Of a stretch of 64,000 bases of DNA, positions 21,650 through 61,300 are shown piece by piece (the first letter of the stretch is position 1; every line of letters begins with the position of its first letter). Source of the DNA: Umbilicaria muhlenbergii (lineage: Eukaryota > Ascomycota > Lecanoromycetes > Umbilicariales > Umbilicariaceae); contig KK106982.1 of assembly GCA_000611775.1 (NCBI GenBank), forward strand, positions 1,116,001 through 1,180,000, written 5' to 3'. The notes beneath the pieces were generated by a model that saw only the letters and a list, made by a program, of their open reading frames with translations, was not told where the DNA came from and made no database searches. Made by a program: the position numbers and the translations under genes.

Positions 21650-24490
21650 TTACCATCGAGCATCTAATGTCTTGCTAACTCGTAGGACTAGTCGTTTCCC
21701 ACCAAATATCGTCTCGAACCTCCTCAGCCTTTCCTCCACGGACATCTTCACGAAAGAAGTCAGCCCGAATTCGACCACCGGATCCAGCGTACCTAACACT
21801 ATTTTCGTTCCATCAACGGGGGATTTCAGTTCGGCCAATACTACCTGGGCTCCGTACGCATTCATCCCCGCTCTTCTGAGAAAAACCTCCCACAACGTCT
21901 CATCTTGTAGCAATTTAAGATCCGGGCGGGTGGGTCCATGACTCGCCATCACCCCTACGATCCACTTCGCCAAATCTTCCTCACCGCCACCAACATAGAT
22001 GACTTGTGCCTCGCACTCCAGCTGCTTGCAGAGACAAATAAAATCTAACAACGCTTCGCAATCTTGGCTGTCTGGAGCTCCCACGTTTATGATGTCACCC
22101 TCGAGGCGTCCTTCACTGACAATGATCAATAGCCTCTCGTAACGCGAGGAAGTCCGCATGACGCGTTCGCGGACTGAAGATCGAAGAATTTGATTGGGTA
22201 AAGCGCGTTGTTTGATCTTCTGCAGTGTCGTGCAGATCAATCCTGTACCAGGCGATAATATCAGGTCAGCCTCATCAGCCATGGTGTCATCCTGGTACCG
22301 AGCATCTGGCGCCTTGGACCCAGACGAAGAAGTGGAGTTTGTGGAGTGGAGATTGAAGTCTCGCTCAATGAATTCTGCAGTTGGAGAGAGCTGCTGTAAG
22401 CGCCGGAATAACTTCTTATTGGATGAGAAAGTGGATGAAATGACAAATGGACGATATCCTCCGGGAACTGCTATATCTGGTGAAGGTAGTGAGAGTTTCT
22501 CTGGCGCAGGCGTGGGCGGTTTTCGTGGAAGTTCGATGGGTGAGGTCTCTCTTGGCAGTTTTGGTAATGTGTTGTAGCTTGGAGTTACTGTTGAGAAGTA
22601 AGAACTATGGACGAGCTTGGGCTTCTTTATTTCACCACTCCTCGTGCCCATGAAGCTCTCCAGTGACCCTAGGGTTGAAATAGTGCTCCCCAGCAATGCC
22701 GGAAAGGGATGGCCATGTTCAGGGCTTTCCAGGGTTGCCTGGACATTCTCCTTGTGCGTAGATTTGACTTCTTGACCTCCACTCGTGGGTTCTCGCGCTT
22801 TGTCGTTACTAAAATCACGCACAGCGATACCTAGAATGGCATCCTCCATATTCTGAAGGTACAGTTTGCGCTTCCTTACGAGAGAGTCCATGTCGGTTGC
22901 TTCTGGAAAGGTGCCATGTTCAAGCTTTTCCACATCAGACTCGTATATCTCGTCAAGAATTCGAAGACCATCTGGCTTCCATACCAAGGTACTGGTGTCC
23001 ACACATCTCGGCTGCGCTAAGAAGTCAGCGAGTATCCTATCGCTGGGAATACCCTCTTCTGTTGCAATTCTTCCCAACTCCTTCGGGAAGGGTGCCCATC
23101 GCATCTCACGCTCCGCCTTTCCACTTGCAAGCCAAAGATGGCCTTTGAAGTGATCCGCCTTGGCCTTCACTAGCAGCTGCTTCTGAGTTTTGGGAACCTT
23201 GCCGTCAACATCCGTGGTATGAGATTTCCAGGGCGGCACCGGCAAGGAAAAGTCCATGATGGGTACGGTGACTCTCCGAGTAGTATCCGCTTGCTGCAAT
23301 TGCTCCTGTTCTAATCCACGGTCCACCTTCGCTGCGATCGGTGCGATACTCTCGGCGAAGAACGCATCAATATTTTCAGAAGATACATCCTCCGGTTTCT
23401 CGATCGGTAGCGGCTTGTCAGGAATGATGTCCATAAGGACTTCTCTGAAAGCTACACCATTTGTCTTCCAAGGTGGAGGCCGCTCAGATAGCGGTGGTGT
23501 TAAGGGACCCTCTACTTTGAATTCATGGGGCTTCGCTCTTCTTATCGGTGGCGAGGAATGCGGTTCTTGGACTCGTCTTATTGTACCACATAGCTGCCCA
23601 AGATCATCCGGCCCTCCCGTCACAGGATCTGAACCCTGTCGGTAGTCACTTTCGACGACCTTATCTGGAACAATCGCGTCAGTGGCCAGGATTGACACCT
23701 CGAGCTCTTGAGCCAGCTGTTTTGTTGGGGTTGTGTGGTCAGATAAGAGTTCGAGATGGCCGATGTCGGAAGATGGAACAAAGGGCATTGCTGGTGGTGA
23801 CAGTGGTAGTAGCGGTGGCGTCACCGGCTCGATGATGGCTCTCTGCAGAACCGTCAGATATCCATTGGAGTTCGCAGCCTTTCTACGAACCTTTGTCTGG
23901 AACATCATTTCGTCGTGAAGATTTCCAACGTCTCCCGCGCTCCTATGAGGCTTTATTACGGACTCTAGGTAGCGTAATGTCTGTTTGGGAGCCTCAAACT
24001 TTTCGAACATTGCAAGTGCATTGTATGTCTGTGGCAAGCAGTAATAGATCGATGGCCAAGGTATGCCTTCACCATTCCCCTCCTCAATTTTTTCCAGCGG
24101 GAGGTGTTCACTTCCAGGGTCTGGTACGACTCGGCGGTGAAATTCCAGCACGTCGAGCTCGTGTACACTTTGGAGGATTGTCAGCTCCATCTTGAGGTTG
24201 CAGCGCCTATGACTTTTGAGCAGCGTAGAATCATCGAAAAGGTGTGTATCCTGGGACGATGCTATCACCGAAGACAGTAGCATTGCTACGTCTTTGCTCA
24301 CAGATAACCGTTCTGGTGATGGAGTCGCAGTTGTTGCGTCAATGCATAAGGCCTCAGCAGGGTCCTCAAGCTGTAAACACTGGTGGTTAGGTCTGCGAAA
24401 GCTGCTTAGAGGGTTGCGCTCTAGATGGTTGTGGATAAGACCGTAGAAGTGAGCGTAGTCTAGGACTGAAGGTTCCCTGTCCTGTGACAT
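21650..24490 (-). CDS. Probable Zip2/SHOC1-like meiotic protein with XPF-like C-terminal domain
   Basis: An intronless 946-residue frame starting at the ATG at 24490; the open frame extends 12 nt further but without an ATG. The N-terminal 180 residues are helical; the middle is disordered and Pro-rich (TPPLLPLSPPAMP, PLTPPLSERPPPW). A folded module from about residue 690 to the end has an order like the degenerate XPF/Mus81 nuclease domain of SHOC1/Zip2: FVISSTFSSNKKLFRRL, then EADLILSPGTGLICTTLQKI, RYERLLIIVSEG, QVIYVGGGEEDLAKWIVG and a terminal MSVEERLRRFETIF helix-hairpin-helix-like tail. No ERKxxxD nuclease motif is seen, as in Zip2. Zip2-Spo16 binds branched DNA to promote crossovers. 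The identification rests on pattern recognition; a fungus-specific protein with an unrelated fold remains possible. Confidence 0.55.
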   Translation of the reverse strand: MSQDREPSVLDYAHFYGLIHNHLERNPLSSFRRPNHQCLQLEDPAEALCIDATTATPSPERLSVSKDVAMLLSSVIASSQDTHLFDDSTLLKSHRRCNLKMELTILQSVHELDVLEFHRRVVPDPGSEHLPLEKIEEGNGEGIPWPSIYYCLPQTYNALAMFEKFEAPKQTLRYLESVIKPHRSAGDVGNLHDEMMFQTKVRRKAANSNGYLTVLQRAIIEPVTPPLLPLSPPAMPFVPSSDIGHLELLSDHTTPTKQLAQELEVSILATDAIVPDKVVESDYRQGSDPVTGGPDDLGQLCGTIRRVQEPHSSPPIRRAKPHEFKVEGPLTPPLSERPPPWKTNGVAFREVLMDIIPDKPLPIEKPEDVSSENIDAFFAESIAPIAAKVDRGLEQEQLQQADTTRRVTVPIMDFSLPVPPWKSHTTDVDGKVPKTQKQLLVKAKADHFKGHLWLASGKAEREMRWAPFPKELGRIATEEGIPSDRILADFLAQPRCVDTSTLVWKPDGLRILDEIYESDVEKLEHGTFPEATDMDSLVRKRKLYLQNMEDAILGIAVRDFSNDKAREPTSGGQEVKSTHKENVQATLESPEHGHPFPALLGSTISTLGSLESFMGTRSGEIKKPKLVHSSYFSTVTPSYNTLPKLPRETSPIELPRKPPTPAPEKLSLPSPDIAVPGGYRPFVISSTFSSNKKLFRRLQQLSPTAEFIERDFNLHSTNSTSSSGSKAPDARYQDDTMADEADLILSPGTGLICTTLQKIKQRALPNQILRSSVRERVMRTSSRYERLLIIVSEGRLEGDIINVGAPDSQDCEALLDFICLCKQLECEAQVIYVGGGEEDLAKWIVGVMASHGPTRPDLKLLQDETLWEVFLRRAGMNAYGAQVVLAELKSPVDGTKIVLGTLDPVVEFGLTSFVKMSVEERLRRFETIFGGKRLVLRVSKTLDARW

Positions 24491-25269
24491 GATATTTTGC
24501 ACTCATATGGTAAGACAGCTCCGATTACACAATAGTTCCCCCACTAAGAATGCACATAACGTAACATAACTTTTGAAAGATTAGCAGAGGTGTGTAAACA
24601 TGCAGGCCTCAGGATTAGGGATGAGAGAGATAAGAAGGATATTTGGAGCCGCGACTCTCGCCTGAATCTGATGCTTGTAAGTCATTGCAAATAATCATCA
24701 TATATGATTGGACTTGATCATTATCCAGGCGGTCCTTGTTGGATTGTCTTTATAAGGACTGTTGTAAAAGGACGGTCGGAAAAGGACGTTAGATTAGAGA
24801 TAACACTAGCCACTTAGGGCTTCGGCACTCTTGCCAACACGTCGGTACATTGTACCATGCCATGTGGGTATAACGAAGCGTGCTTGACTACCACGTTGCC
24901 AGTAACAGCCAAACTAGGGGCTATATAACGTCTTACTGTGAAAGAGTTTGTTCGGATAACAATTATCCCAGTCCCGCCAACTGGCTGCGAAGATGCACTA
25001 CGCTAAAGCGATGACCGGTTGGTCAGGTGACTTGCCCACAGAAGATAGGAGATCGTAAAGGACAAAGTCACCAGTGATCCAAGGTGAACATTTGTCATGT
25101 GTTTTCATTGCTTCATAGATACATTGTCTACCTGTAAGTTTTCATTCTTGAATCCATTGGGTAATAGATGCACGCTCGCTAAATCGCATCAATCAAATTG
25201 ACTAACCGAGAGTAGAGTCCGAAGCGCACATCAGGCGTTGCCGCCGCCGCCCTTTGCATGATCGTCGTC
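24491..25269. other. Intergenic
   Basis: About 780 bp with no gene. It carries several AAGGAC motifs (24755-24787) facing an inverted GTCCTT, and a perfect 13-bp palindrome GGTACATTGTACC at 24844-24856. Either could be a protein-binding site; no function is shown. Confidence 0.5.
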
Positions 25270-51217: not shown

Positions 51218-52595
51218 TGCAGTGGGGCAAGCATCGGCATCGCGGACCTCACACCTCATGGATGGGCAAAGGGATGGGAGAGAATCTTCGGTCTAGATGT
51301 TGGGGAGGCGCCTGGGGAGTGTGGTTGCTCTCTGAAGCTCTGCAAGCTCGGCGCCTGGGATCTGTATCTGTTCCATTGGGGGCACCGCACAGCATAGAGC
51401 AGGACCGAAGCGGTCATTGCGATCACATGAAAGATCACGTCGGCGATCAATCCTGGCGAGATAGTCGCACTCGAGCAGGGTCAGTGGCGGTCTAGATGCG
51501 CAAATCCGGGCTGGTGTCGGAGATGACCATGACTGATGTGAATGATGTGTGCAGCCGGGAGGATCCTCCAGTTTCAAGTTTGATCAAGGAGGGCGCGCCC
51601 GGCCAATGAGGGACGCGGCCGGTCCCCCCACTCGGCTCGGCCCCATTTAAGCGACAGCTCTCGGCTAGAGCGGAAGCGCTGAGTGTGGGCGAGGTGGGGC
51701 GTGGTGGGCAAGCGAGGCAAGGCCGCCGCGCCCCCTGGCCCTTGGCGCTGTTTCGAAAGCAACGACGGCACGGCGAGCAGCGTGACAGGAACGGCGTGGT
51801 GCGGGGCCTGTCAGCGTGCCGGTCAGCGTGCCTGTCAGCGTGCCGGTCAGCGTGCCCGTCTGCGTGCCTGGCTGGTGTGCCCGTCTTCTAGATGAGCCAT
51901 CTCCGTCCACAGCGACTCTGCGCCTATCAAAATGCCCGGCTGGCCCCCTCCTGCCGCAAAGACTGCAGCCAGCTGGCGGTCCTTCATCGCAATCCTGACT
52001 CTCCCCCCCCCCGGTGCCGTCAGGCTGTGATCTCATTTGGATGCAGCGCATGGAATGCTTGGTGCGCGTCGCGAGGACCCTGCAGCCTCAAAGGCATGTG
52101 CCTTGCGTCAGATGCTGGTTCTCCAGGAAGCAGGAAGCAAATGTAATAACCTCCCCCTTTCTCCCACCGAGATGTCTCCGAGGTATGTAAGAAGCTTAAG
52201 TCTTGCACTTCCACGCCTCGCAGTGCAGCTTCGTTGAGATTTACACTTTGCATTCGCTTTGGACACTCGTCCCTTACATTCATTTTGCTTGTCCTCGACA
52301 AAGTCCCCTCCTTTAAACTTGCGAGCGCGTCTTCAATTCCATTCACAAGTACTATTTATTCACAACTGCTACTCCGTGTTTACCACAACAACCTCACTCT
52401 TCCGTCGATCCAACACTTTCGCACGCCCTTTCTGTTCAGACGCGTACTGCGCCCCAAGATCCGTGATCTTTGCCGTTCATTCAGCCTCCCTTCGATTCTC
52501 TACCTTCCTTCAACAACTTGCAGGCTCGTTGACCGAGCCCTTGCGATCATTCCCAAAGCGTTCAGGCTGCAGAGAAATTGCAACAACCGTTCGAC
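51218..52595. other. Intergenic, promoter of the AA9 gene
   Basis: 1.4 kb without a gene. It holds the 12-bp minisatellite (51809-51868) and, from about 52230 to 52590, a pyrimidine-rich stretch typical of the leader of a highly expressed fungal gene. Confidence 0.55.
51809..51868. repeat. 12-bp tandem minisatellite, five units
   Basis: Five copies of a 12-mer: TGTCAGCGTGCC and GGTCAGCGTGCC alternate (units 1-4), then a diverged CGTCTGCGTGCC. The alternation of the first base shows a 24-bp higher-order unit. Confidence 0.9.
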
Positions 52596-54267
52596 ATGAA
52601 GCTCCTTGACCTGAAGAGTGCCGTGGTCGCTATCGCCGTAGCTCGGGCTGTTGATGCTCACACCGTCTTCACCAACTTCTACGTGGACGGCGCAAACCAG
52701 GGCCCTGGCACCTGTGTTCGTATGAACAAGAGCGTCCCGAACGCCACCTTCTACGTTCCGAGTGTTACCAGCGATGATATGGCATGTGGTGAGTACCTTT
52801 GCCCCCCTCGTCTGAAATGGCTGCGAGCGGCCAACTTGGCTCACTGGCTAATAATACTTCCAGGTATTGATGGCAACATCGGTGTTGACCGCGTCTGTCC
52901 CGCCAACGCCGGCTCGACCTTGACCCTCGAGTTCCATGATAGACCGGACATCATTACATCTGGCGCCATTGATCCATCGCACAAGGGTCCCTGTGCTGTT
53001 TATATGAAGAAAGTTGATTCGGCTGTGGCTAACGACACCGCTAAAGGCGATGGTTGGTTCAAGATTTGTATGGAAGACCACCGCATCCCCATTACCCTCA
53101 TCAATCACTGACTGCTTTATGTAGACGCCGCCGATTACAACACCGCTACGAGCACATGGTGCACTGAGGATTTGATTGCCAACAACGGCCTTCTTTCCGT
53201 CAAGATCCCTAGTGACATCGAGGGAGGTTACTACCTAGTTCGACCAGAGCTTCTCGCCCTTCACCAAGCGGACAGGACACCACCGATCCCCCAATTCTAC
53301 ACCGGGTGTGCCCAAGTGTTTCTGACGTCCACTGGTTCGGCCGTACCGGGTAACACCGTCTCAATCCCCGGCTACGTCGACATGAATAATCCAGCAATGT
53401 CCTTCAACATCTATAAAACGCCTATGGCACTGCCGTACCCAATGTTTGGTCCTCCGGCGTACGTATCGACCTCCTCGAAGCGTGGTATTGAAGGCCGTGC
53501 AGTCCAACAAACAGAGGGGTTGAAGCCCGCTGGGTGTGTTCTGGAAATGGGCAATTGGTGTGGCATGGAACTCGCCAGCTATTCCACCTCGGATGGCTGC
53601 TGGAATGTGCGTCTACACACTGAAACAGCCGTTTCATATCTAATTGCTAATGTCCTTCTCAGGCTTCCCAAATTTGCTGGAACGAAGGCACGGATTGTTA
53701 CAGCTCCGCCGACGCAACGGGCGACGCCAGCTGCAAGATCTGGGATGACAAATGTACGGCCATGGACAATGCCTGCAATGCGGGAAATTTCAACGGACCA
53801 CCGGATGCGGGCAAAGATCTTACGCCCCCGGTAGCTTCGCCAGTCCTGCCACCACCTGCAGTGGAGACACTGAGTACTTCGGGTGCTAAGGAAGCGGCAG
53901 TGTCTGGGGCTTCCTACTCTACGGCGCCGGCGGTGACCTCGGTGGCATATGTGGCCAGCACAAGCACAGCGGCCGCGGCACCGGCATCGACGACTGCTGT
54001 CCAGTCAAGCTGTAGTGCGTCCGAGTCCACCTGTGGGTCTAACGGCCAAACCTGTGCATCCGGGATGTGTTGTTCTTCGCACGGGTAAGTTGGGACAAGC
54101 ATCTTCCAGGCTGACTACAGAACTGACGTTGTTCTAGCTACTGCGGAACTACGGACGAATACTGCGGCTCCGGATGCCAATCCGCCTTCGGAACATGCTC
54201 TTCTGGCTACAAGCTGCGTCGAAGACACCCGCATGGACGGAGGCACGGAAACGAAGCTCTTCCGTAG
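52596..54267 (+). CDS. AA9 lytic polysaccharide monooxygenase with C-terminal CBM18 chitin-binding domain
   Basis: Five exons (52596-52788, 52864-53067, 53125-53606, 53663-54084, 54138-54267) give 476 residues. A signal peptide (MKLLDLKSAVVAIAVARAVDA) cleaves to expose His22, the N-terminal half of the copper histidine brace. The second brace His is His104 (DPSHKGP), the axial Tyr is Tyr191 (PQFYTGC), with Gln189 and second-sphere His179 (LLALHQA). These are AA9 features; AA9 enzymes oxidatively cleave cellulose and related glucans. A second Cys-rich module (ICWNEGTDCYSS...CKIWDDKC...NACNAGNF, about 315-360), a Ser/Thr/Ala linker and a hevein-type CBM18 follow (CGSNGQTCASGMCCSSHGYC, GTTDEYCGSGCQ). 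The last residues are very basic (RRRHPHGRRH). Usual AA9 partners are CBM1, so a chitin-binding partner is unusual. Confidence 0.88.
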
Positions 54268-54736: not shown

Positions 54737-55974
54737 ATGGTTTTGCCTAAGATTGGAGGTGGGAAAACCCGTCCCGGAACCGCACGCCCTACTCTGGGCG
54801 GGAAAGGCATCAAGACCGGGGCCGGCGGCAGAGGTCTAGGGAAAGCAGGAGCGCGACGCCACCGGTATGTTTCTTATTGGAGTCCAATCGTTTGGTTTCT
54901 CCGTTGTCGAAGAGTTTTGTGTGTTTGTGCACTTTGCGGTGTTGTCTCTTGAGTCTCGCTTCTGGATCAGCACCTCGACGGAGAGGATGGGCTGGATCTA
55001 GAGTATATTGCTCCATCCACTTCGTTCTTGGTCTATCAATGGATTTCTTGGTGTAGACTTGATACTTCTCGGGGAATACGAAACTTACGGGGCAGTAGGA
55101 AGATTATCAAGGACACGATTCGCGGCATCAGTGAGTTAGCGCTGCAGGGTATGATGAGCTATGTCTGGTTTCTAACATGTGATTCCTGCAATAGCGAAGG
55201 GTGATATCAGGTCTGTCTGGAGTCCTTTATGTCTATCTCTACTGTATCGTTTGAACCTTGTACATCTCCTTCGCTCGCACTTGCTCAGGTCAATCTTCTG
55301 TGGCCTTACTCATATCTGCTTGATGTTCCCTATGAGTAGCAAACGCGATCTACCCTTCAAACCAGAGTGTGGAAGGATGCATCACAGATATACTAACCCA
55401 CTTTGGCTTCCAGACGTATGGCGCGTCGTGGTGGTGTTAAGCGTATATCTGGCCAAATATACGAGGACGTACGAGGCGCGCTGAAAGACCGAATGACCCG
55501 AGTAAGCTGTCTCTCTTCCCAGGGTGGCCACCAGGAAACTGACCACGCCCACAGATAATCAAAGACTGCTGCGCCATTCTAGACAATTCGGGCCGCAAAA
55601 GTGAGCCTCTGGTAGACTGAAGCTCTGTGTCACTATGCAAACATACTAACATAATCTGATCTGCACTTAGCCATCTCTGTGTCTGACGTAAGTACTACAA
55701 CTCTCTGTGCTCTGTATTATGCTGAACTCATCTAGGTCATCTTCGCCTTAAGACGAGTAAGTCCTCTTGAGTCTTCTATGCCCATGTTCTACGGATGGAA
55801 CCCCAGTCTCCAGGTAAACGGGGCATTTGCTAATTCTTGTGGTTTGCTTACATTATAGATCGGAACACCTGTCTATGGTACGTACTTTCAGGCAAGGCTA
55901 AAAAGGTATACCACATGTTAACGGTTGTAGGTTTTGATCAAGACACATATAATCCGAAGAAATTACGCCGTTGA
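54737..55974 (+). CDS. Divergent histone H4 variant, nine exons
   Basis: Exons 54737-54864, 55099-55130, 55195-55210, 55414-55501, 55555-55600, 55671-55687, 55736-55756, 55859-55877 and 55931-55974 total 411 nt (136 residues). The joined protein aligns to H4 without gaps in the core: [20 protein letters not shown], then [20 protein letters not shown], and GRKTISVSDVIFALRRIG. It has a 24-residue N-terminal extension and ends YGF plus 12 residues (canonical H4 has two). At the positions of K5, K8, K12, K16 and K20 it has A29, R32, K36, R40 and K44. Two Cys (CC at 93-94) sit in the alpha-2 helix region. Introns include two over 200 nt. Fungal H4 variants are known, for example Neurospora hH4v, but are little studied. 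All joins use GT...AG. Confidence 0.9.
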
Positions 55975-56506: not shown

Positions 56507-57778
56507 CTACCTCTTCTTCCCAACAGCCATCTGCGCATCCACCACCTCCTGTAAAGTCTTCCTCGCTCTCGCCTCTCGGCGGTCAAACCCGCCATTAAAG
56601 ATCTTCGGCAACACTCTTCCCGAATCTGTAACACATGGAGTCAGCCAAACAACCCTATCCATCCCCACCCCTGGCCACAAAACTCACTCGCGTGCACCTC
56701 CGCAAACTCCACACTCTCACACCCCTTCTCCACGACCGCGACCCTAACCGCCTCCTCCAACAACCCCCTCCCCACGCCCTTCCCCCTCCACCTCAACCCC
56801 ACCGTCCACGCCCTCACCACGCCCTTCTTCCCCACCCCCCCCTTCCTCCCCCTCTTCCCCTTCTCCTTGTCCCTCTCCCCCGGCACAATCCTCAAAACGA
56901 CACACCCGATAACCGTATCCCCGTACTGCGTCACCACCACCACATCCCTCTCCCCGCCTTCTTTCCCCCCCCCCTCTTTCTTCCCCGNNNNNNNNNNNNN
57001 NNNNNNNNNNNNNNNNNNNNNNNNNNNNNNNNNNNNNCCGGGTCCAAAAACCCCCACCCCACCCCCTCCGCCCGCTCCAAATACCCGCCCGCCGCCCACC
57101 GCACCCCGACCAACATCGCCATCACGCACCCCGCCCACGTCGTCGCCACCAGCGCCCAGCTCCCGTGCTGCAGACTCAGGATGTACTGCGCCACGGCGGC
57201 GAGGACGGCGAAGGCGGGCGCGAGGAAGAGCGGGTGCGAGAGGAGGAGGCGCGAGGCGAGTTGGCGCTGCTGGGCGATGCTGTCGGCGATGAGGTGGAGG
57301 GCAGGGGGGCGGAGGAATGGGTGGGGGCGGTGGGGGACGACATTGTTGTGGGGGGAGGGTCGATGGCGAGGGAGAGTTGGAGGTTTTGGCGCAGGGTGGA
57401 GAGGAAGGCTGTGCGGGAGGAGAAGAGGAGGTTAGTGTGCGGGATATCTGTGAGGAGGACGGATGGACGCGAGCGGGCGCTGGGGAAACGAGAGGGACCT
57501 TTTGGGTGCAGAGGTGCGGGTGCTGGTGCGGTGGAAATAATCATTCTACCAACCACGAGGTCGGAGCGATCGATGTCTTTTTCCGCTCTTTTCAAACAAC
57601 AAAGGACGAACAGCACCTTGATAGACTTACCGGCGCTATATCTCAACCCAGGAATCCTCTCGACAAAAGCCTTTCCCAGATATTCGATCCCGTCCGCCGT
57701 CTTGTTCTGAAGCTGTCCCAGCTGCGTCTGAAGGTTCGATGGGAAACTCGATTGGAAAGACTCGTATCGCCGTGCCAT
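56507..57778 (-). CDS. GNAT-family N-acetyltransferase with two membrane spans, interrupted by assembly gap
   Basis: A minus-strand gene. The start MARRYESFQSSFPSNLQTQL leads to GLRYSAG, then an intron beginning with GTAAGT near 57630. The next part (TDIPHTNLLFSSRTAFLSTL) runs into two membrane spans (FLAPAFAVLAAVAQYILSL; ALVATTWAGCVMAMLVGV). The gap at 56988-57037 cuts the coding region. After it, VVVVTQYGDTVIGCVVLRIV, RAWTVGLRWRGKGVGRGLLE (the acetyl-CoA-binding R/QxxGxG/A loop) and VEKGCESVEFAEVHA identify the GNAT fold. A last intron (56687-56626) leads to a 119-nt exon ending at 56507. Near 57310 the frame shifts within a C-run; one missing C would restore it, so sequence error is likelier than pseudogenisation. 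Substrate unknown. Confidence 0.7.
56988..57037. other. Assembly gap, 50 N
   Basis: Exactly 50 N, probably a placeholder of unknown true length. It is flanked by C-rich, low-complexity coding sequence of the GNAT gene. Confidence 0.98.
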
Positions 57779-58348: not shown

Positions 58349-61300
58349 TCAAGGTGCCGTCTCCGCCTCCGCCATCAGCTGCTCTCCTTCATCCAATAGT
58401 TCGGTGATTTTCGCCACATTTGCGATCACCTTCTTTCCATGCCCGACCAGCAACAGTTTCTCCGCGTTCGCCGGCAGCCCTAGATATGTGGGTGGCTCGC
58501 GCTCCGGTAAGCGGTTCACCCACTGCATAAAGTCTTTCATTCCTATCCCCTCGGGGACCGTCAAGTCTCCGTCTCCGTCTGTGTAAGCACCGGCTTCCTC
58601 GCCTCTGACTCCTTCGACTAGTTTGTGGCCCTGGTCAAATGCTGCGGGCGTCAAAATACCGTGGACGAGTTGCGCAAGTTGCTTGAAGTCACCGTCATCG
58701 TCGATCTTGCCACCGTATGTTTCGGTGATGAGGGTGCGTATGAGATCCCAGGGCATGTTGAGGGGAGCAATATTGGATCGACCGTGTGCCACTGTATCAA
58801 TCCAGTAATCGATAATAAATGCAGCGCATTCATACTGCATGCATGTTAGTATTCTGCCTTCTGCAACGCGGACAAGATCCTTACATCGCTGTCATTAAAC
58901 TCCCAGAACCCCTTCCATCCCAAAGTCGGGGCATATCTCAACCGCTCCTGGATCACTGCATGTAGGAATGAGAGTAGAAGATATACTCTTGCCTTCTCCA
59001 CTGGCTCTTTGACCCCTCGTATCGAAAGCGACGATAGTGAATCCTTCATATTAGCCTTCACTCCGGCTGGTTGCTCATACATGAGCACTCTTGAAGCCCG
59101 AAGTAGATTAACCGGTATCTTGAGACTTGACTCCATGGCAAGGAACAACCGGAAGTCAGGATGAGGCTTCAACGAGTTCAGTCGCTTTTCAAGACTCTGT
59201 AGCCACGTCGGTGCCAGATGAACATTCTTGATCAACACCCATGACCCAGTAGCTGCTGCGTTACTGATGGCTTTGTCCGCGCTGGCCAGGCCTTCATTGG
59301 AACCCATGGCAATGTTCGAGCATTGAGTACGCGTCTCTGCCACTAGACTGTCCACTTTGTAGCTGGCGTCGAATCCAGGACTAGAACATAGAGCAATCGG
59401 TGTAGTTGGAGAAACTTGCTTCACAACGCGGCCGAGATTCTCCGTTGCTTCTAGCAAATCTCCGCCAAACACAGCGGTAACAAACTTCTCAGCCGCTGGC
59501 ACAAAACGGTCCATTCTGAAGATCTTGACGAGCAACAAGGATATAAGACGTTGATCTAAATCATTCGTGTCCTCGTCCCATACTGCGGGGACAAAATCCT
59601 CTGCTATTTCTTCGGTGCAGAATCGATTCCATTCCGAGGACGAAACCTTCGCAATGTTTGGCTTCAAAGCAGGAAAGCGGGAAGCTTTGGCTAATGCCTC
59701 GTCTTTACGCCCAGAGTCTGCTGAAACGTCGCTCCCCTCGAAGCTAGGGTCTAGAATATTTGCGATAAGTCCAGTGTCCATTTGGTACGGTGAAGCCTGA
59801 GCAAGAAGCATGGCCAGGGTGACACGATCTTTTTGCAACAGACTGAGTGAAGTCCTTTGGTAAGTGCACACGAAAAGATCTCTGAGAATAATGTCGCCGC
59901 TAACAGAATAATCTTTTTGAGCTGCGAGTCGAGGGTTGTCATGAAGGACGGAGTTGAAGATGTCCACGAAATATTGCAACGAGAACTGGTAGAAATGATT
60001 AAGGTGGTGAAGTTGCTCTAGGACAGCAAAGACTGCACTGCAAGATCTGGCAATGGTGTTATACTGCAGGGTGATGTTCTCAACCTCAGTCATCACACCC
60101 TCCGTCTCCGACATCTTCCTGGAAATCTCTTTGGCTTCCTTCTTCAATGTCTCAAGCGTCTCAACGACGACGTCATCATCGAGGATGTTGCCTCGAGATT
60201 CATTGAGTGCCTGGAGAAGGCGTTTCTCCAAAGCTCGTAGATGGACGTTGAATTCGCCCTGCATTTTGACAAGGTTGGATCGCCTCTCGTCCACGTCCGG
60301 TCGCTCGGACTTGAGAACTTCATTCAATGACTGTGTTTGAAGGCTGCTTCGAGTGACAGTGAAGTTCACGAAAGTGGTTCGACTGCAGATATCGGGAGGG
60401 AACCTGGCTGAAGGGTCTCGAGTGGAGAGGTAGAGCTTGAACGCAGGCGAGAAATCGATCTCTTGCTTTCCCAGCTGAATAAGCACACGACCCCCAGTTC
60501 TTTGGTACTCTTTATTGAGAACGTGGTTCAAAACAGGATCGAGATGCTCGGCATCCTGGATAAGAATCGGGTTTCCAAAACGAAGCGAGCTCTCTAGCTG
60601 TTTGATGAAGGAATCATCAAGAAAGCTGGTAACGGTAAGCCGCCGTTCTTTGCTCTCATTTTGTAAGAAGTCTGCGGCACGTCCGGAAGGATCGATGATC
60701 AGGGGGTAGCGGTTGAAGCGCTTCAGAAGTATAGCATTTTCGGTACACAGTTCATCCACAGGAAGCCCATTCTCGTGCCAATTGAGACGTTCATCAGCGG
60801 TCGACAGGTACTCGGTTACCGGGTTGTGAGGCTTGTAGCTGATGCCAGACATCACAAGCTGACCCAGCCAGTCATTCGTCATAGCCTTACGGAATTGCTG
60901 ATCAAACAAGCCACTGTAGGCCAAGAAGGCCGCTGCAAGTAGGACATCACCGACAATGGTGCTAATCTGTGTCTCGAAAGATTTGCTTCCTTCCTCCCAT
61001 CTCAATCGTTCGGAGGAGAGACTGTCAAGTAGCTTCACACTCCGGTCAACCTTGAATTGAACGCGGGACATTTCGGTTTTGATGGCTTGCGTTTCACTTA
61101 TCAGGGCCGCGTACTCGGTCTTGTATTTGGAAATGCTGCGCTCAAGATTAGTGATGGTGTTATTGATCGCTTGTGCTTCAGCTTTGGTCTGCAGCGCTTG
61201 CTCCTCGAGCTGCTCTGCCTCCTCGCGTAGAGGACCAACCCGATCTAATATTGCAGAATAGTTGACTTGAGCCTCGACCCACTGCACAAGCGGCCCACAT

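Follow-up and report, generated by a model that had tools for sequence, protein, structure and literature searches.

The window analysed here, 64,000 nucleotides of the Umbilicaria muhlenbergii genome (C2:1116001-1180000; C with a number denotes a contig of this 34.8-Mb, seven-contig host genome), contains a gene for a highly divergent histone H4. It is almost certainly the H4E gene of the host, the orthologue of hheA of Aspergillus nidulans and hH4v of Neurospora crassa. The gene model, predicted from the DNA, joins nine exons into a 411-nt coding sequence for 136 residues, and all eight introns (48-234 nt long) have GT-AG ends (Table 1).

Two genes on the opposite strand follow H4E in the window, encoding a GNAT acetyltransferase domain and the C-terminal domain of a dynein heavy chain, the nudA orthologue. 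The motor and N-terminal domains of the latter were located further along the same contig, and Svf1 is encoded beyond them. The gene order is H4E, GNAT gene, nudA, svf1, with both published neighbours of H4E within 19 kb of it. The GNAT frame contains the sole N run of the window, which is either masked sequence or a gap in the assembly. A chitin-binding type 1 domain (PF00187) comes after the AA9 lytic polysaccharide monooxygenase sequence on the opposite flank of H4E, apparently within one gene; this domain scored 36.8 bits with its two pieces joined (cut-off 27.8) and 21.9 bits as a single piece. A long frame with DUF7102 and SAM-like domains was also detected in the window.

Table 1. Features of the H4E locus and related loci of the host genome (plain numbers, positions in the window; C numbers, positions on contigs)
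Feature	Position	Strand	Remarks
DUF7102 and SAM-like domain frame	21653-24502	-	950 residues; PF23394, PF23395
AA9 lytic polysaccharide monooxygenase gene	52533-54267	+
H4E gene	54737-55974	+
H4E exon 1	54737-54864	+	128 nt; covers the lengthened N-tail and the first part of the basic patch; phase 2 at end
H4E exon 2	55099-55130	+	32 nt; published model 29-32
H4E exon 3	55195-55210	+	16 nt; published model 16
H4E exon 4	55414-55501	+	88 nt, as in the published model; covers loop 1 with the end of helix 1 before it and the first half of helix 2 after it
H4E exon 5	55555-55600	+	46 nt; 45 in Eurotiomycetes, added codons not counted; helix 2 (second half) and loop 2
H4E exon 6	55671-55687	+	17 nt; Eurotiomycete exon 18
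H4E exon 7	55736-55756	+	21 nt; published model 21
H4E exon 8	55859-55877	+	19 nt; phase 1 at end; the published spacing is the same in Lecanoromycetes and earlier-diverging classes
H4E exon 9	55931-55974	+	C-terminal extension and stop
GNAT acetyltransferase-domain frame	56641-57540	-	domain in 56644-56985; between H4E and dynein gene
N run	56988-57037		50 N
Dynein heavy chain C-terminal domain (nudA orthologue)	58349-58891	-	domain 58352-58891; remainder extends past the window
nudA orthologue, motor and N-terminal domains	C2:1180756-1186686
Svf1	C2:1188679-1189216
Canonical H4 gene	C1:486170-486507
Canonical H4 gene	C2:1831884-1832339
H3-like repeat, two of six stretches	C5:10000-29999
H3-like repeat stretch	C2:6618500-6628400
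H3-like repeat stretch	C3:3462500-3472400
H3-like repeat stretch	C5:878500-888400
H3-like repeat stretch	C1:5898500-5908400

The H4 fold is complete

The first-pass annotation had described a deep H4 variant that keeps the whole fold with a gap-free core, and this was borne out. Placed without gaps on the host's own H4, the predicted protein is identical at 54 of 103 positions; from Gly4 to the end, identity is 54/99 with zero gaps. The 24 residues claimed in front and the 10 behind were recovered in this placing, before mature residue 1 and after the canonical end, respectively. The alignment program instead opened a gap of four residues behind the first four of the tail, where the ungapped placing matches none of four, so the front count is good to within a few residues. 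Matches among solved structures (PDB) were all named histone H4 among the 60 listed of 96, with E values of 1e-31 to 7e-25.

The changes are unevenly distributed. The DNA-contact residues R36, I46, K79 and T80, as named for canonical H4 in PMC10878826, are all kept, and so are six of nine residues in the basic patch (16-24) and six of seven in loop 1. In the ungapped placing lysines 5, 8 and 16 are lost (K5A, K8R, K16R), and further substitutions include Y72I, H75N, Y88F, R95T and T96P. Exon 5 is the most diverged stretch, and the heaviest change was found in residues 61-77 (2/17 kept; a stretch chosen after viewing the alignment), in the second half of helix 2. Identity is 33/48 in residues 1-48 vs 21/54 in residues 49-102 (Fisher p 0.003, for a split likewise chosen with the alignment in view). 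Later helix 2 and helix 3 of H4, by the usual helix limits, form the H4-H2B bundle and face H2B. The N-tail has 7 Lys and 6 Arg in 46 residues vs 5 and 4 in 23 residues of canonical H4, a higher count at a lower density.

Exon plan and splicing

Flipphi et al. 2024 (PMC10878826) describe H4E as a divergent H4 variant that occurs through most of Pezizomycotina and has lengthened tails and a gene plan of its own. The published plan is a phase-2 intron, a 29-32-nt exon, a phase-1 intron, a 16-nt exon, a phase-2 intron, an 88-nt exon and then phase-0 introns. For the later exons its legend gives 60, 18 and 21 nt, while the text gives 63 nt, divided in Eurotiomycetes into 45+18, in most cases with extra codons, frequently five; we read the legend's 60 as 45 plus 15 (five added codons). 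A phase-1 intron 19 nt further on is given for Lecanoromycetes and earlier-diverging classes, and at 18 nt for Dothideomycetes (PMC10878826).

In the host gene the exons after exon 1 measure 32, 16 and 88 nt with the published phases, then 46+17 (=63), 21 and 19 nt. Intron 5 lies one nucleotide off the Eurotiomycete place, so that it is in phase 1 (46/17) instead of phase 0 (45/18), and no codons are inserted before it. The last intron is additional to those of A. nidulans H4E, as in Lecanoromycetes. In the predicted gene, the 46+17 split and the last phase-1 intron combine features that the published survey gives to different classes (PMC10878826).

Retention of any one of introns 1, 2, 4, 5 and 6 would end the frame prematurely, at residues 72 to 125, and retention of intron 3 or 7 would move the end to residue 150 with an altered sequence. 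Intron 8 (55878-55930) could be retained with the frame open and the total length equal, the last 13 residues being different, so the predicted C-terminal extension depends on its splicing. Alternative splicing at this intron is possible; we favour the spliced form, since it brings back the canonical YGF and some classes have a published intron at such a spacing.

Canonical H4 genes and identity of the variant

The first-pass annotation had also proposed looking for a canonical H4 elsewhere in the genome. The search with canonical H4 detected two ordinary genes (Table 1) in addition to H4E, and two other weak hits, at 29% and 26% identity, whose scores are not those of H4 genes. The two ordinary genes, H4.1 and H4.2, code for an identical 103-residue protein; they have two introns in common and a third occurs only in H4.1, which is divergently arranged, head to head, with H3. 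In the genome search with H4E as the query, no second copy was detected among the best candidates scored. H4E shares with H4.1 and H4.2 the gap-free core, but its tails are longer and none of its eight introns coincides with any of the three intron positions of the canonical genes.

The match of exon lengths and phases to the published plan, the lack of canonical intron places, the linkage to nudA and svf1 and the presence of two canonical H4 genes together make the gene almost certainly H4E. The H4 fold, the longer tails, the 29-32/16/88/21-nt exons with their phases and the nudA/svf1 linkage are shared with A. nidulans and other Pezizomycotina H4Es, as are the two canonical H4 genes alongside and, as in many H4Es, the change of K16 to Arg (PMC10878826). 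In Aspergilli hheA lies between nudA and svf1, a synteny kept in Eurotiomycetes and Dothideomycetes (PMC10878826); here the linkage is retained with nudA standing between H4E and svf1, an order that an inversion of the H4E-nudA block would yield. The N-tail extension also differs, about 24 residues here vs 5 in A. nidulans, and the A. nidulans tail is reported with 2 Lys and 2 Arg (PMC10878826). The Neurospora hH4v, named in the same paper as an H4E orthologue, is comparable by description: it is a divergent H4, coexists with canonical H4 genes and apparently cannot replace them (PMC10878826). No stable tree of H4Es was obtained by these authors (PMC10878826).

We also scanned contig collections not meant for fungi for relatives of H4E, and confirmed none of three pattern matches in viral contigs and none of 76 in prokaryote genome contigs. 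The hH4v of Neurospora crassa reportedly goes back to Hays et al. 2002.

Dispersed arrays of H3-like genes

Elsewhere in the genome we detected an AT-rich dispersed repeat in which divergent histone H3-like genes stand in arrays. Identity between shared pieces longer than 2 kb is 82-99.5%, and the longest such piece measures 5.3 kb. The six stretches of this repeat that we examined (Table 1) contain 16 H3-fold exons, 38-53% identical to H3, with four apiece in two stretches; a second exon was matched for 14 of the 16, and stops occur in several. Two paralogue types, compared over one 192-nt exon, gave dN 0.21 and dS 1.03, and the types were therefore once under selection. Within types, dN is near dS for one (3 pairs) and below dS for the other (6 pairs). 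RIP-type dinucleotide ratios gave no clear sign in this repeat. The Pfam histone search of the genome gave 63 matches in all, ordinary histones included, part of which have been classified. Compared with the H4E finding, a repeat that has spread divergent H3 genes seems the more unusual.

Selection and alternative identities

Among codons of kept residues, fourfold sites of H4E agree at 12/30 with H4.1 and 12/29 with H4.2, much as between the two canonical genes (24/62), so silent sites are saturated. The NG86 comparison with canonical H4 gave dN 0.46 with saturated dS, for which reason no dN/dS figure is given. A recent copy of H4 was among the readings rejected. An older H4 duplicate in decay, one that no longer makes a useful protein, would fit the absence of a detectable deletion phenotype in A. 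nidulans and the loss of H4E in whole groups such as Penicillium (PMC10878826). The open frame is in itself weak evidence against such a relic, since in a simulation of neutral drift that started from H4.1, with substitutions alone and 4000 runs at each step, about 15% of the copies at 0.3 changes per site still had open frames, with about 56/102 residues kept. That distance is far too low for H4E, because its silent sites are saturated; at 1.5 changes per site neutral drift left a mean of about 12/102 residues, and H4E retains 54/102. With silent sites saturated, H4E still has about half of its residues and every one of the eight splice-site pairs intact, on which ground the pseudogene reading was rejected and we consider a decaying relic very improbable. 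With silent sites saturated yet the fold kept, H4E looks selected rather than decaying, a constraint that the comparison places over most of the life of the gene rather than in the present day.

Another histone-fold protein, such as CENP-T, TAF6, CENP-S or an archaeal-type histone, was considered as Pfam returned CENP-T_C, TAF, Histone and CBF/NF-Y, all weak and under their cut-offs. The scores of H4E were 19.5 bits for CENP-T_C (cut-off 28.1), 15.9 for TAF (21) and 13.8 for CBFD_NFYB_HMF (21.4). The canonical H4, however, matches the same four models first and in nearly identical order, and the general Histone model (cut-off 26.4) misses both H4E (16) and canonical H4 (25.2). The structural matches to H4 alone among those listed, a separate strong CENP-T-type match in the genome and, decisively, the ungapped match to the H4 fold refute this alternative, which we regard as next to impossible.

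Possible function

In A. nidulans the H4E protein is nuclear, scarce and unable to stand in for H4.1; it meets H3 in a BiFC assay and its GFP fusion overlaps histone H1 in nuclei (PMC10878826). Under nitrogen starvation at 37 C the gene shows good expression (PMC10878826). Its deletion and its overexpression from the alcA promoter had no detectable phenotype, while expression from the H4.1 promoter mildly altered growth, which the authors say may reflect nucleosome entry under cell-cycle-timed supply (PMC10878826). The deletion result means that no role has been demonstrated in A. nidulans. The first-pass annotation was right in its main point: the gene is an intact and highly divergent H4 variant, in a filamentous fungus that also has canonical H4, and the class has already been described as H4E/hH4v (PMC10878826). 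Its further claim that the depth of divergence implies a specialised chromatin state is unsupported, given these deletion and overexpression results. In the papers covered, our search of the H4E/hH4v literature found no function, and hH4v is cited in one of them as "with unknown function" (PMC6703697).

We tentatively propose that H4E partners ordinary H3 and takes the place of H4 in a minor fraction of nucleosomes, and that it would be made outside the bulk S-phase supply. The altered H2A-H2B-facing half would weaken H2A-H2B docking and give looser particles, and the altered tail may make these particles less accessible to the marks usually placed on H4 tails. This working has a little less than an even chance in our estimation. 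Instead of serving as an octamer subunit, H4E could function away from nucleosomes, for instance as a storage or chaperone-like partner of H3 during starvation. The low protein level, the BiFC contact with H3 and the failure to rescue loss of H4.1 in A. nidulans (PMC10878826) are consistent with such a function, as is a divergence that peaks in the latter half of helix 2. The retained DNA-contact residues and most of the basic patch argue against it, together with the overlap of the GFP fusion with H1, and we find it unlikely. Hardly more probable, though we rate it slightly higher, is a distinct, loosely closed nucleosome or H3-H4E tetrasome, with the DNA-binding N-terminal half fixed and the H2A-H2B-facing half and C-tail rewritten, which would shed H2A-H2B easily and escape K5/K8/K16 acetylation, perhaps under starvation.

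Taken together, the gene is probably best explained as H4E, an old, intact and intron-rich H4 paralogue, which we infer to be a minor H3-pairing replacement with weaker docking. To our knowledge, H4 variants are rare. The gene is already known in kind, being a further copy of a family without explained function, and it raises no question beyond those opened by the 2024 paper (PMC10878826). H4E is kept across most of a fungal subphylum without a known job. The host H4E adds to this a gene structure that mixes class-specific features of the published survey, and its residue map singles out the H2A-H2B side of H4 as the site to test.
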